This document shows, in pieces, positions 17,283 to 36,607 of a stretch of 64,000 nt of DNA. The position numbers were made by a program, and so were the translations under genes. Source of the stretch: Selenomonas sputigena ATCC 35185 (GTDB taxonomy: Bacteria > Bacillota > Negativicutes > Selenomonadales > Selenomonadaceae). The notes under the pieces were generated by a model that saw only the letters and a list, made by a program, of their open reading frames with translations, made no database searches and was not told the origin of the DNA. The stretch is taken from assembly GCF_000208405.1 (NCBI RefSeq), contig NC_015437.1:1543501-1607500 (forward strand), written 5' to 3'. Positions within the stretch are counted from its first letter, which is position 1. Each line of letters begins with the position of its first letter.

Positions 17283-17322
17283 AAAAAAATCTCCCGAACA
17301 GAATCATACTTCCGTTCGGGAG
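17283..17322 (-). terminator. Terminator after the first HD-GYP-like gene
   Basis: Stem CTCCCGAAC/GTTCGGGAG (17314-17322 and 17291-17299) with a 14-base loop, then ATTTTTTT on the minus strand. Confidence 0.85.
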
Positions 17323-17350: not shown

Positions 17351-18724
17351 TTACATGCCGCCTGCCGCCGTTTCCTTTGCGGCACCTTCCTTTTTTTCCG
17401 CCTCAGGACTCGCCAAAAGATATTCAACCTTGATGCTCAGCATCGTATTGAGGTCGACGAACTGTCCATCTAGCGTCTGCACAACGGGAAGCGCATTCAT
17501 GCGCGAGCCGTCGATGTAGACGATCTTCGCCACCTCGCCGTTGGAAAGCTTGACCCAATTGCCGTTAAGCGTACTGGAAAAGTTGCGGATGAAAGCGATG
17601 CCATACTCCGCATCCAGTCGTCCCGCAATACACTCGTCCGAAATAACGGAAAAGACCTCGAAGGGAGAACGCCTTTTCGCATAGTAACGGCGCGACGCCA
17701 TCGCATCGTAGGTGTCCAGAATGGCGAGAATTCGCGCGAATCTGCAAATTCCGTCCTTCTTCATCTTTTGCGGATAGCCCGATCCGTCATTGCGCTCATG
17801 GTGCTGCAGAACAGCCTCCACGACCTGCTTGTCAAGCTGCAGTGAGGAGCGTGAGACGATGTCGTAACCCAGACGCGCATGTTTCTGCATGAGTCGTCGC
17901 TCCTCGGGTGTATAGCGCGCAATCTTCCTGAGAAAGTTCGGTGCGAACGAAGTATAGCCAATATCCATGAGGAATGCCGCCAAAATCAATCGCTGCTTTT
18001 CCTGCGCCGACATCTTGAGCCACTGCGCCATGAGTCCGGCTAGAACCGCGACGCGCATCGTGTGATGCAGTTGGTACTCGCCAATGGTTTCCATATTGTA
18101 AATGTGCGTGACTGCTTTCGCGCTTGAGGAAAGCGGCGCAAAGTTGCGTGAAATCGCCTCCGCCTCTGCCGTATTGATGCGGCCTGTTGCACGCACCGAA
18201 CTGAAAAAGCCCTGCAATTCCTCAAAGCACGCCTCATACTGCTCGATGTACGCCGCTTCGAGCACAGAAGTTTCGCGCAGCACAATGCCCGACTTCGAGG
18301 TTGGTCGGTTGTCCGGCTTCTCTTCCGCCGCTGCGTCCGGCAAAGGCACATCATCGCGCACCCCCGCTTCCTTCGGCTCTTCCTTCGTCTGTGCCGCCCG
18401 CTCAGTCGCGCGCGCTTTGAGTTTGGCCAACGCTTCCTTCTTCGCGGTTTCTGCAGCAGCCACCACCTCCATGGCCGTCTGTTCCTGCGCGTTCGGAATC
18501 GCCTTCTCTTTCTTCGCCTGCGGAGGCTCGGCGTCAGCAATCACTTCATCCGAATCGGGCATCAAAATACGGACGAAAACAATCCCCCTCTGATCGAGAT
18601 ATTCGATTCGCTGCTCATCGAGCACTGTCCCCTCGCCCAAGAGGACGGACATATCCTCAGCATATACCGTTCGCCCAATGACCATGCCCGCTTCCAACTG
18701 GTCAACGGGATACTTCTTCAACAT
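17351..18724 (-). CDS. HD-GYP-like protein 1, HD dyad His replaced by Met
   Basis: 457 residues from ATG 18724, which has AAGGGAG 9 bases upstream. The N-terminal block LKKYPVDQLEAGMVIGRTVY is shared with the two neighbours. An Ala/Glu/Lys-rich linker (about 70-150) follows, then an HD-GYP domain. Conserved: LHHTMRVAVLAG, KHARLGYDIV, HHERNDGSGYP and ILDTYDAM. The usual LHDIGK is LMDIGY here, so the metal-binding His and the Lys are missing. HD-GYP domains hydrolyse cyclic di-GMP; this one may be inactive or a sensor. It is probably co-transcribed with the second paralogue, as no promoter stands out before it. Confidence 0.9.
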   Translation of the reverse strand: MLKKYPVDQLEAGMVIGRTVYAEDMSVLLGEGTVLDEQRIEYLDQRGIVFVRILMPDSDEVIADAEPPQAKKEKAIPNAQEQTAMEVVAAAETAKKEALAKLKARATERAAQTKEEPKEAGVRDDVPLPDAAAEEKPDNRPTSKSGIVLRETSVLEAAYIEQYEACFEELQGFFSSVRATGRINTAEAEAISRNFAPLSSSAKAVTHIYNMETIGEYQLHHTMRVAVLAGLMAQWLKMSAQEKQRLILAAFLMDIGYTSFAPNFLRKIARYTPEERRLMQKHARLGYDIVSRSSLQLDKQVVEAVLQHHERNDGSGYPQKMKKDGICRFARILAILDTYDAMASRRYYAKRRSPFEVFSVISDECIAGRLDAEYGIAFIRNFSSTLNGNWVKLSNGEVAKIVYIDGSRMNALPVVQTLDGQFVDLNTMLSIKVEYLLASPEAEKKEGAAKETAAGGM

Positions 18725-18814
18725 CCACTTGCACTCCCTTGCGAACCATTGCAAATCGAGGGACTTCTCTCATCCATTCCCCAGCAATTTTTCCAAAACA
18801 ACGAAAAAGACCCG

Positions 18815-19987
18815 TCATGCTCCCTGCACTTCCTCACTCGTCAGCAAGGACACGATTTTGATATTGCCATTCGTGTTCAGATCAAGGAAGTCCCCTTCCA
18901 TTGTCTGAACGACCGGCAACGCATCGAGACGCGATTCATCGATATAGACGATCTTGCCCACACCTCCGTCACTGAGCCTGACCCAACAGCCATTCAAGGC
19001 TTGACCGATATGACGGATGAACGAGACGCCGTATTCCGTATCCAAGCGGCCTTTCAAGATGTCATCGGCAAGAATTTTGAACACATCAAAAGGCGACCGC
19101 TTTCTCTTATAAGCACGATTGGAAGCCATCGCATCAAAGATGTCCACAATGGCAAGGATGCGGGCAAAGCCGCATATCTGCTCTTTCTTCAGTCCTGCCG
19201 GATAGCCCGAGCCATCGTTTCTCTCATGATGCTGCAGCACAGCGCCGACAATCTGCTCATCCGTCCCAAACGCAGACCGAGCAAGAAGTTCCTGACCCAA
19301 GCGTACATGCTTCTGCATGAGCCTGCGCTCCGCATCGCTGTAATATCCCTGTATCTCAAGGAACTCCAGCGCGATGCGCGTCGTGCCGATGTCTAGGAGA
19401 AAGGCCGCCATAATCAGACGTTCCCTCTCCGACGCGCGCAGTTTGAGGAATTGCCCCATAAGTCCTGCAAGAATGGCAATGTGCATGCTATGGTGAAGGC
19501 GATAATCCTCTTCTGTTTCCATATTATAAATCTGCACGATCGCCTTCGCGCTTTCGCACAACGGCAGAAACTTCCGCGTCAGCGAGCGAGCAGCCTCCGC
19601 ATCAATGCGCGAGGCCGTCCTCGTGTCGGCATAGAACTTCTTCAACAAAGCAAAAACTTCGTCATATTGCCGCACATAGGAATCATCCTGAAGCCTCTCC
19701 TTCTTCGGCACAACCTTCGCAGGCATCTCCTCAGCTGCCTCGGCAGGAATCTCGCCCCGCTCCTCATCTTCCCCGAGCAACGGCGGGTTTGCCGCCGAGA
19801 TCGCTTCCTCCTCGTCCTCCGCCTGAATATACACGGAAAAGATGTCGTGATCGGCGAGGGAATCGAGCATCTTGGACGTGAGCACCGTTCCTTCGCCCAA
19901 AAGGATCGTCATATCGTCCTTGTATACATCCCGTCCAAGAATCATGCCTTCCCGCAGGCGGCCGATGGAACACTTCTTCAACATCAT
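18815..19987 (-). CDS. HD-GYP-like protein 2, HD dyad His replaced by Leu
   Basis: 390 residues from the ATGATG at 19987, with GGAAGGG upstream. It begins MMLKKCSIGRLREGMILGRDVY, the shared N-terminal block. The linker is acidic and shorter than in protein 1. The domain keeps HHSMHIAILAGLMGQ, KHVRLGQELL, HHERNDGSGYP and AIVDIFDAM. The HD site reads LLDIGT instead of LHDIGK. It has its own promoter. The C-terminal GVGKIVYIDESRLDALPVVQ followed by TMEGDFLDLN is closely shared by all three paralogues. Confidence 0.9.
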   Translation of the reverse strand: MMLKKCSIGRLREGMILGRDVYKDDMTILLGEGTVLTSKMLDSLADHDIFSVYIQAEDEEEAISAANPPLLGEDEERGEIPAEAAEEMPAKVVPKKERLQDDSYVRQYDEVFALLKKFYADTRTASRIDAEAARSLTRKFLPLCESAKAIVQIYNMETEEDYRLHHSMHIAILAGLMGQFLKLRASERERLIMAAFLLDIGTTRIALEFLEIQGYYSDAERRLMQKHVRLGQELLARSAFGTDEQIVGAVLQHHERNDGSGYPAGLKKEQICGFARILAIVDIFDAMASNRAYKRKRSPFDVFKILADDILKGRLDTEYGVSFIRHIGQALNGCWVRLSDGGVGKIVYIDESRLDALPVVQTMEGDFLDLNTNGNIKIVSLLTSEEVQGA

Positions 19988-20099
19988 CCTGCACCCTTCC
20001 ATGGCGAGGCAGTCGAGCACGTCATCGAAACGTCCGCGTCCGATGGTATCCGACTGCCTTTCTTTCTCCGCCCAAAAATCCCTACAATCGTCGCATTAG

Positions 20100-20128
20100 A
20101 TTATATCATGATTCCTTTCTGAATGCTA
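20100..20128 (-). promoter_or_regulatory. Promoter of HD-GYP-like gene 2
   Basis: TAGCAT (20123-20128), 17-bp spacer, TATAAT (20100-20105). The same TAGCAT-17-TATAAT layout precedes gene 3. The leader is about 105 nt. Confidence 0.65.
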
Positions 20129-20165
20129 CTGTTTTCGCCAGATAACAGGGCGCGCAGGAAACCAG

Positions 20166-21482
20166 TCAATGTGTCATCTCTTCGCTCGCGAGCATGGACT
20201 CGATGCGTATGCTGCTCAGCGTATTGAGGTCGACAAAGGCGCCGTCCATCGTCTGCACGATCGGCAATGCATCAAGCCGCGACTCATCGATGTAGACGAT
20301 CTTGCCCGTCTCGCCGTTCGTGAGTTTGACCCAGTTGCCGTTCAGCGAATTGCAGACGTGGCGGATGAACGGCAGGCCATAAGCCGCATCGAGATGGTTT
20401 GCGACAAATTCATCGGACAACGCAGAAAAGACATCGAAGGGCGAACGCCTCTTGGCGTAGGAGCGTCTCGAAGTCATCGCATCGTAACTGTCGAGAACGG
20501 CAAGGATGCGTGCAAAGTCGCAGATCTGCTCCTTCTTTACGGCATCCGGATAACCCGAGCCGTCGTTTCGCTCATGATGCTGCAGCACTGCCCCAGCAAT
20601 CTGCGCGTCTGAAGCAAATGCCGAGTTCATGACGAGCGCATGACCGAGGCGCGTGTGCTTCTGCATGAGGACACGATCCTCCTTCGTATAGCCGCCCACC
20701 TTTTTAAGAAACCCCGGCGCTATGCGTGTGGAGCCAATATCAAGAAGGAGCGCCGCCATGACGAGGCGCAGCCGATCGCGCTGCATCATCTTTAGCCATT
20801 GCCCCATGAGACCTGCGAGAATGGCGACGCGCACGCTGTGATGAAGCGCGTAGTCGCCCTTCATCCTCACATTGTAAATGTGCGTCATCGCCTTGGCGCT
20901 TGAGCAAAGCGGCAGAACCTGCTGCGCTAGGATCTCCACCGCCGCCTTGTCGATGTGCCCGCTCGTGCGCGTCGTTTCGTAAAGCATCGAGAGATTAAGA
21001 CAAAGATCCTTGTACTGGCTCACATAAGCAGACTCAAGAGAAGCGTCCTTTTGCGGGGCAATCCCCGTCTGCACGACAGAACGGGCAGTCCTCCGACGAA
21101 TCACAGGCTTCACGGCAACGGTGTCCGCCACCTCCCGCATGAATTCCGCCAAGGCGGCGTCCTTGTCGGGAGAAGACGCTTCAGGCACGATGTTCAGCGT
21201 GGGCAAGAGAGCTCTGCCGGACTTTGCCCGCGAGCCGCCCAAGGCCGCCGCCACATCTGCCAGAGCGATTTTCACATTGTCAACCTGATGCACAGGAGGC
21301 ACAGGCGCGATATCATCACGCACATGAACGAAGTATACGTCGCGGCTTTCCAGTAAAGAAATCATCTGACGATCAAGAACCGTTCCCTCCGACAAAATGA
21401 CCGTCATATCCTCTTCATAAATGCCTCTGCCAATAACCATTCCTTCCTGCAACTGACTTACTGGATACTTTTTCAGCTTCAC
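20166..21482 (-). CDS. HD-GYP-like protein 3, HD dyad His replaced by Leu
   Basis: 438 residues. The start is GTG 21482 behind GAAGGGATGA, which gives VKLKKYPVSQLQEGM and lines up with the two neighbours; the GTG at 21506 would add 8 residues. The domain keeps LHHSVRVAILAGLMGQ, KHTRLGHALV, HHERNDGSGYP and AVLDSYDAM, but has LLDIGS at the HD site. The linker carries the basic stretch KPVIRRRTARSVV. It has its own promoter, and its gene ends about 60 bp before the promoter of gene 2. Confidence 0.9.
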   Translation of the reverse strand: MKLKKYPVSQLQEGMVIGRGIYEEDMTVILSEGTVLDRQMISLLESRDVYFVHVRDDIAPVPPVHQVDNVKIALADVAAALGGSRAKSGRALLPTLNIVPEASSPDKDAALAEFMREVADTVAVKPVIRRRTARSVVQTGIAPQKDASLESAYVSQYKDLCLNLSMLYETTRTSGHIDKAAVEILAQQVLPLCSSAKAMTHIYNVRMKGDYALHHSVRVAILAGLMGQWLKMMQRDRLRLVMAALLLDIGSTRIAPGFLKKVGGYTKEDRVLMQKHTRLGHALVMNSAFASDAQIAGAVLQHHERNDGSGYPDAVKKEQICDFARILAVLDSYDAMTSRRSYAKRRSPFDVFSALSDEFVANHLDAAYGLPFIRHVCNSLNGNWVKLTNGETGKIVYIDESRLDALPIVQTMDGAFVDLNTLSSIRIESMLASEEMTH

Positions 21483-21526: not shown

Positions 21527-21555
21527 ATTATAACACCGCCTAGGACTAAATGCTA
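21527..21555 (-). promoter_or_regulatory. Promoter of HD-GYP-like gene 3
   Basis: TAGCAT (21550-21555), 17-bp spacer, TATAAT (21527-21532), matching the promoter of gene 2 in both hexamers and spacing. The leader is about 40 nt. Confidence 0.65.
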
Positions 21556-21624: not shown

Positions 21625-21659
21625 ATAAAAAAAGATGGGAGGCATTCGTCTCCCATCTT
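21625..21659 (-). terminator. Terminator after clpB
   Basis: Stem AAGATGGGAG/CTCCCATCTT with an 8-base loop, followed by a T7 tract on the minus strand. Confidence 0.92.
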
Positions 21660-21688
21660 TACCCGCTTATGCAGCTTTCTGCTTTTCC

Positions 21689-26848: not shown

Positions 26849-26901
26849 ATTCATTGCGTTGCGCAATAATCCCCTTCCCCATCACTCGCAGGTCAAACGG
26901 T

Positions 26902-27066
26902 GATTGTCAGCTAGGCAGTTCTCCTGGCTCCAGGTCATCGCTACTCTGCGCCTTCCCAAGGAAAACTCCCCAGTGACATTATGCAGATTCGCTCGCTGTT
27001 ACAGTGGCGGGACCGCTCCGGCATTGACCGGATTCCCTATTAAGTCTTGCGACACCTAACCCAATC
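26902..27066 (-). ncRNA. Cobalamin riboswitch 1 (upstream of cbiK)
   Basis: The minus strand carries the B12-box AGCCAGGAGAACTGCC (26914-26929), the core AATAGGGAATCCGGT, and GGTCCCGCCACTGTAAC. The closing stem pairs GATTG with CAATC. A terminator follows. Binding of adenosylcobalamin or a related corrinoid should turn cbiK off. Confidence 0.93.
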
Positions 27067-27104
27067 GATATGAAGTTTTTATGTTCTCATGAACTTCATG
27101 TATT

Positions 27105-36369: not shown

Positions 36370-36424
36370 AAAAAGGCGCACGAAACACAAGCCACGCCTT
36401 CCTGTCTCTCGCAGGAATAATAAC

Positions 36425-36565
36425 AGCGCTCCGAGCGGGCAGTTCTTCTGGCTCTGCATCCTCATCTTCCTCGCCTTCCCAGTTTCCCAGTGGCATCATG
36501 AGGTCGACTCTGCATTACAGCTGCGGGACAGCACAGGTCTTTCACCTGCTTCTCTATTGAGCGCT
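36425..36565 (-). ncRNA. Cobalamin riboswitch 2 (upstream of the Opp/Nik-type importer)
   Basis: The minus strand carries the B12-box AGCCAGAAGAACTGCC (36438-36453), ATGCCACTGGGAAACTGGGAAGGCG and AGCAGGTGAAAGACCTG. The closing stem pairs AGCGCTC with GAGCGCT. It shares the whole layout with riboswitch 1. The remaining 36233-36345 and 36566-36607 show no gene. Confidence 0.93.
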
Positions 36566-36607
36566 ATGCGCACCCGATCGGCAAAATATGAAGTTACTTT
36601 CGGATTC

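Follow-up and report, generated by a model that had tools for sequence, protein, structure and literature searches.

Three tandem genes encoding HD-GYP domain proteins in Selenomonas sputigena ATCC 35185 (family Selenomonadaceae) lack the histidine of the HD dyad, and this loss is one inherited event followed by gene duplication, within a subfamily in which the same histidine has been lost independently between genera. The genes, named P3, P2 and P1 in their order of transcription, lie in bases 1543501-1607500 of the complete 2,568,361-base genome, a stretch of 64,000 nucleotides referred to as "the window" in this study. HD-GYP proteins are normally counted as cyclic di-GMP (c-di-GMP) phosphodiesterases. 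On balance, we favor the reading that the three proteins do not hydrolyze c-di-GMP and act as receptors for it, or for another cyclic dinucleotide. To judge from their residues, hydrolysis has very probably been lost and one metal probably remains in the pocket.

A preliminary description of this region had pointed out three tandem HD-GYP-like paralogues without the HD histidine, and the three open reading frames (ORFs) are indeed present (Table 1), each matching the Pfam family HD_5 (91-95 bits with a cut-off of 27.2; expectation values (E) of 5e-27 to 7e-26). Residues of HD-GYP domains are numbered here as in PmGH of Persephonella marina. The position of H221 is occupied by Met in P1 and by Leu in P2 and P3, the motif LHDIGK having become LMDIGY, LLDIGT and LLDIGS, respectively. 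The lysine of this motif, K225, is also missing (Tyr in P1, Thr in P2 and Ser in P3), a loss overlooked in the preliminary description. Its statement that HHERNDGSGYP is kept along with the rest of the metal site was borne out, as H189, D222, H250, H276, H277, D305, D308, Y285, R314 and the GYP motif are found in all three proteins. The H...HD...H...HH...D ligand set of active HD-GYP phosphodiesterases is incomplete at H221. Position 185, four residues before H189, is Tyr in P1-P3 and not the E or D of the trinuclear E/D-T-G subgroup; Tyr at this position is usual for the Y/F two-metal HD-GYP subgroup (PMC4159591).

A tree of 117 domains, from which columns 221, 222 and 225 were omitted, had its root placed at the sister group, which consists of canonical HD-GYPs. 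In this tree, the trio is monophyletic (support 100/97) and nested in a clade (98/85) that further includes a fourth copy from the same genome (G000:C1:1901007-1901948; L004, L038) and, from two other genera, a tandem pair of genome G019 (MDxGN) and a member from genome G009 (CDxGM), all of which are without the histidine. Because the trio is monophyletic inside a wholly His-less clade, one inherited loss explains its present state, and three independent losses within the trio are ruled out by the tree. Within the subfamily, K225 has been lost only in this clade. The fourth copy, which is conserved in the congener G030, is more degenerate than the trio, carrying ILIGN for HDxGK and YH for HH, i.e., all three of H, D and K are gone, together with one histidine of HH; one of the G019 paralogues has SH for HH. 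The His-less motif of the trio is also present in the sister species, which speaks against a chance occurrence.

The subfamily is widespread in Selenomonadaceae, usually with one copy per genome, and 143 of 151 genomes had a match at E 1e-30, a figure that takes in the canonical sister group. His221 is absent from 92 of the 133 distinct subfamily domains and kept in 41. His221 is ancestral, as it is present without exception in the 24 sister-group proteins and in the 20 relatives that belong to other families of the class. The His-less domains carry Leu (39), Ser (28), Ile (8), Met (6), Cys (5), Thr (4) or Tyr (2) at this position, which needs 7 changes on the tree (7-8 over the bootstrap trees), and well-supported branches force 5 of these; 9 losses are required if the histidine was never regained (best tree, read by hand). 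Regain may have occurred in single lineages, e.g., in L048 when compared to its close relative L058. These two close orthologues of genus g18 (in G060 and G044, respectively) carry HD versus LD in an otherwise near-identical context, and they form a natural pair, differing by a recent loss or regain.

Of the 92 His-less sequences, 81 still have K225 and 32 have Glu in place of D222, the latter always together with Ser, Thr or Cys at position 221. Replacement of HD by Ser-Glu or Thr-Glu (31 of the 133 distinct sequences) is found in the Quinella-like genus g13 and its relatives (L101-L106 and many of L162-L217); these sequences mostly retain the lysine of HDxGK as well as the remaining ligands and, as far as residues can tell, their metal site looks rebuilt. 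Of 398 genomes of the phylum, 3, all in Selenomonadaceae, matched a DNA pattern in which [Leu/Met/Val]-D-I-G precedes HHER..DG..G[YF]P, as compared to 307 for the His version, and this is a rough measure of rarity because the pattern covers NTG codons only, missing many variants (P2 and P3 included) and all Ser and Ile variants.

The other ligands are held far more tightly than position 221. Counted as steps on the tree, column 221 takes 18 (the median column takes 17), H250 2, H276 3, H189 and H277 1 each, and D305 none, while D222 changes 6 times, mostly to Glu. Y285 is kept in 98% and R314 in 95% of the His-less sequences. The ratio of nonsynonymous to synonymous substitution rates (dN/dS) between this genome and G030 is 0.042, 0.052 and 0.067 for the HD-GYP plus C-terminal part of the three trio genes, with the synonymous sites of P1 near saturation in this comparison; the N-terminal part plus linker gave 0.22-0.31, and clpB gave 0.013. 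With values of 0.04-0.07 in the HD-GYP part, the trio genes are being maintained rather than decaying. The earlier argument that loss of the same ligand in all three proteins reflects selection and not decay is therefore half right: selection is seen in dN/dS, but the tree does not allow three parallel events.

A nearby histidine replacing the lost ligand would have overturned the claimed loss, and such a residue was looked for by sequence. Across the 133 subfamily sequences, the absence of H221 is not accompanied by a new His or Cys in any column, and a replacement ligand is thus invisible at the sequence level. An extra histidine beside H189 was considered as a substitute and rejected, as it is present in 95% of the His-keeping members and in 13 of the 20 class outgroups, and is the same in most independent pairs.

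How the trio might work can be pictured from the general allotment of ligands to the two metal sites of HD domains. Without H221, the classical HD metal site would be one ligand short, and without K225 a residue would be gone that in PmGH steadies E185, D222 and D183. The other metal site (D222, H250, H276 and H277) and the nucleotide contacts Y285 and R314 would persist, and because these remain, the domain may still be able to hold metal and clasp c-di-GMP. The bound state could then be reported via the N-terminal and C-terminal domains, with the differing linkers suggesting differing partners. The three genes would have been born by local duplication of one already His-less ancestor. In PmGH, the H221A and K225A substitutions essentially abolish activity, but Y285A, P286A and R314A do not, and PmGH crystals with the G-site iron alone held uncleaved c-di-GMP (PMC4159591).

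There are precedents for HD-GYP proteins whose HD motif is broken. DvhD of Desulfovibrio vulgaris (2026; PDB 9RBZ and 9RC0) was shown to bind c-di-GMP, at about 99 nM, without hydrolyzing it (PMC13090378). The AlphaFold2 model of P3 shares its HD-GYP fold (Z 19.0 over 190 residues), and the HD motif is broken in both. However, DvhD reads SQ instead of HD and MN instead of HH and is metal-free, whereas the HH of the trio is intact and all ligands but one are kept; DvhD is also a membrane receptor with dCache and PAS domains, which the trio lacks. The model likewise resembles the active phosphodiesterase PmGH (4MCW; Z 19.2), with which the trio shares GYP, R314 and six of eight ligands (H189, D222, H250, H276, H277 and D305), but in place of the essential H221 and K225 and of E185 the trio has Met/Leu, Tyr/Thr/Ser and Tyr. 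The best structural match is the inactive Bd1817 of Bdellovibrio (3TM8; Z 23.8), in which the di-iron site is preserved but the GYP tyrosine and the final aspartate are missing, the reverse of the trio. The HD motif is also broken in ECA3548 (Pectobacterium), in VC1087 and VCA0895 (V. cholerae) and in LIC_10122, LIC_10138 and LIC_10139 (Leptospira), all predicted or shown to be inactive; VC1087 and VCA0895 had no phosphodiesterase-like effect (PMC4212101), and the three Leptospira proteins, unlike the trio, lost substrate-contacting residues too. Closer at hand, the His-keeping subfamily members (for example, the Megamonas-like L020 and genus g7) have the trio's domain order, HHER(C/N/G)DGSGYP and C-terminal domain with LLHDIGK or LLHDVGK intact, and are predicted to be ordinary phosphodiesterases. 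In the open-licence literature, we found no description of a family in which the HD histidine alone was lost repeatedly while the remaining ligands stayed frozen, although an earlier report is possible, and no tandem set of His-less HD-GYP paralogues was found described there.

The retained pocket and metal site, the one-iron PmGH crystals, the precedent of DvhD and the c-di-GMP machinery of the genome together make a receptor role the best reading of the trio. Receptors were one of the two options named in the preliminary description; the other, a different metal centre, may apply instead. This machinery consists of 11 GGDEF, 4 EAL, 3 PilZ and 3 canonical HD-GYP domains, and 4 of the 7 HD-GYP domains of the genome are predicted to be inactive. 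Production of c-di-GMP by S. sputigena has been reported (PMC13339959). Signalling by c-di-GMP in oral Selenomonas was termed unstudied in that paper, with annotation naming one phosphodiesterase only. A separate tandem pair in this genome (G000:C1:287121-288818; L001 and L002) is canonical HD-GYP with LHDIGK. Several points weigh against a receptor role. The main doubt comes from H189 and D305, which are invariant though a one-site receptor would not need them, and this would also fit a working two-metal site that is one ligand short. K317, which in PmGH also contacts guanine, is replaced by Ala in two of the trio proteins, though most His-keeping members have Ala there as well. Moreover, since DvhD binds c-di-GMP without metal, a receptor role alone leaves the retention of metal ligands unexplained.

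Those frozen ligands would also suit trio proteins that are still phosphodiesterases. Their two-metal site would then have been rebuilt, the place of H221 being filled by water or substrate or, in the Quinella-like relatives, by Ser/Thr combined with a Glu for D222; the metal, the rate or the substrate might differ. The very strong constraint on H189, D305 and the other ligands after at least five losses, the presence of K225 in most His-less sequences, and the fact that the Glu replacing D222 is still a carboxylate all speak for this. However, H221A killed PmGH activity (PMC4159591), an HD-to-AA change abolished VC1348 function (PMC4212101), the trio clade additionally lacks the lysine that is essential in PmGH, and no new residue identity has become conserved at position 221. 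We regard continued catalysis as unlikely, if deserving of attention. Somewhat less likely still is a role as a scaffold, neither cleaving nor binding nucleotide, in which the domain makes protein-protein contacts and metal serves folding. Bd1817 offers a precedent as an inactive HD-GYP protein that keeps its metals, and ECA3548, according to work cited in PMC4212101, influences c-di-GMP processes without the HD motif. But Bd1817 has dispensed with the GYP tyrosine, while the His-less sequences almost always retain both Y285 and R314.

Finally, the trio could be former enzymes heading for loss. Some relatives have gone far in this direction, such as the fourth copy, the G019 paralogue with SH for HH, and the nearly ligand-free L098 and L099. 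In the trio, however, the six remaining ligands and the reading frames are intact, gene order is conserved, and dN/dS is low in all three genes in the two species compared. On the dN/dS values we reject decay, which we consider highly improbable and close to refuted.

Beyond the trio, one may tentatively propose, with a receptor role still favored for the trio itself, that the subfamily has repeatedly dropped its name-giving histidine and yet keeps a working metal centre. Members of this one-ligand-short series (Leu/Ile/Met-Asp, Ser/Thr-Glu, and the trio, which is also Lys-less) might still cleave a cyclic dinucleotide or hold it by one metal as a signal, a single repeatable substitution perhaps turning an enzyme into a receptor. 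The repeated single-ligand loss across the family provides matched natural pairs, with and without His and with and without Lys, for the question of how an HD-GYP enzyme becomes a receptor.

P1, P2 and P3 share 50-52% identity with each other. The N-terminal block common to them, noted in the preliminary description, is a divergent DUF3391, exceeding the curated cut-off only in P1; of the other two proteins, one falls below it and one has no match. The linkers differ in length, as had been noted, and the C-terminal domain is beta-rich. The P3 model has a core with a predicted local distance difference test (pLDDT) score mostly above 90 and an HD-GYP fold matching Bd1817, PmGH, DvhD and PA4781. 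Residues 9-65 of this model, within the N-terminal block, superpose on part of MoeA-type proteins (Z 8.1-8.3, root-mean-square deviation 1.3 over 55-56 residues), a likeness that may merely reflect a common small barrel.

Table 1. Features of the trio region (positions in the window)
Feature	Position	Strand	Remarks
P3, first trio gene	20166-21482	-	GTG start, 438 amino acids; N-terminal block, linker, HD-GYP (LLDIGS), C-terminal domain; ORF, HD_5 match, AlphaFold2 model
P2, second trio gene	18815-19987	-	390 amino acids; domain order as P3, short linker, LLDIGT; ORF, HD_5 match
P1, third trio gene	17351-18724	-	457 amino acids; domain order as P3, long linker, LMDIGY; ORF, HD_5 match
Lost HD histidine codon (H221), P3	20742-20744	-	Leu247
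Lost HD histidine codon, P2	19394-19396	-	Leu198
Lost HD histidine codon, P1	17966-17968	-	Met253
HDxGK lysine codon (K225), P3	20730-20732	-	Ser251
HDxGK lysine codon, P2	19382-19384	-	Thr202
HDxGK lysine codon, P1	17954-17956	-	Tyr257
HHERNDGSGYP, intact, P3	20547-20579	-	H302-P312
HHERNDGSGYP, intact, P2	19199-19231	-	
HHERNDGSGYP, intact, P1	17771-17803	-	
Putative P3 promoter	21527-21555	-	TAGCAT-17 bases-TATAAT, TG extension; -10 conserved in G030, -35-like part not; by eye
Putative P2 promoter	20100-20128	-	TAGCAT-17 bases-TATAAT, TG extension; both parts present in G030; by eye
Terminator-like hairpin after clpB, upstream of the trio	21631-21660	-	
Terminator-like hairpin after P1, end of the trio	17291-17322	-	

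Separate promoters had been proposed for the three genes. Reading by eye, we found a putative extended -10 element (TGnTATAAT) with TAGCAT 17 bases upstream at P3 and at P2, and likewise at the fourth copy, but no promoter of this type was visible upstream of P1. An automatic promoter scan did not call the P2 and P3 sites, and promoter-like sites were no commoner than in shuffled sequences. The gene order clpB-P3-P2-P1 is identical in this genome and G030. In other genera, the single-copy subfamily gene is frequently flanked by uvrB on one side and by a gene for a class-I aminoacyl-tRNA synthetase (LeuS-like) on the other; these neighbours, like clpB in the window, were uninformative as to function.

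Further variants were seen elsewhere in the family. L098 and L099 (in G044 and G060) represent a second paralogue in which nearly all metal ligands are gone (QYSK..Y..HR) with the ORF intact. Seven proteins of genus g7 (L053, L066, L073, L074, L077, L110 and L112), of about 800 amino acids, have what by eye is an ATP-grasp-like enzyme fused before the DUF3391-like and HD-GYP domains, and they keep the histidine. Elsewhere in the window, two cobalamin riboswitches are present on the minus strand at 26897-27074 and 36421-36592 (105.6 and 98.8 bits, respectively).

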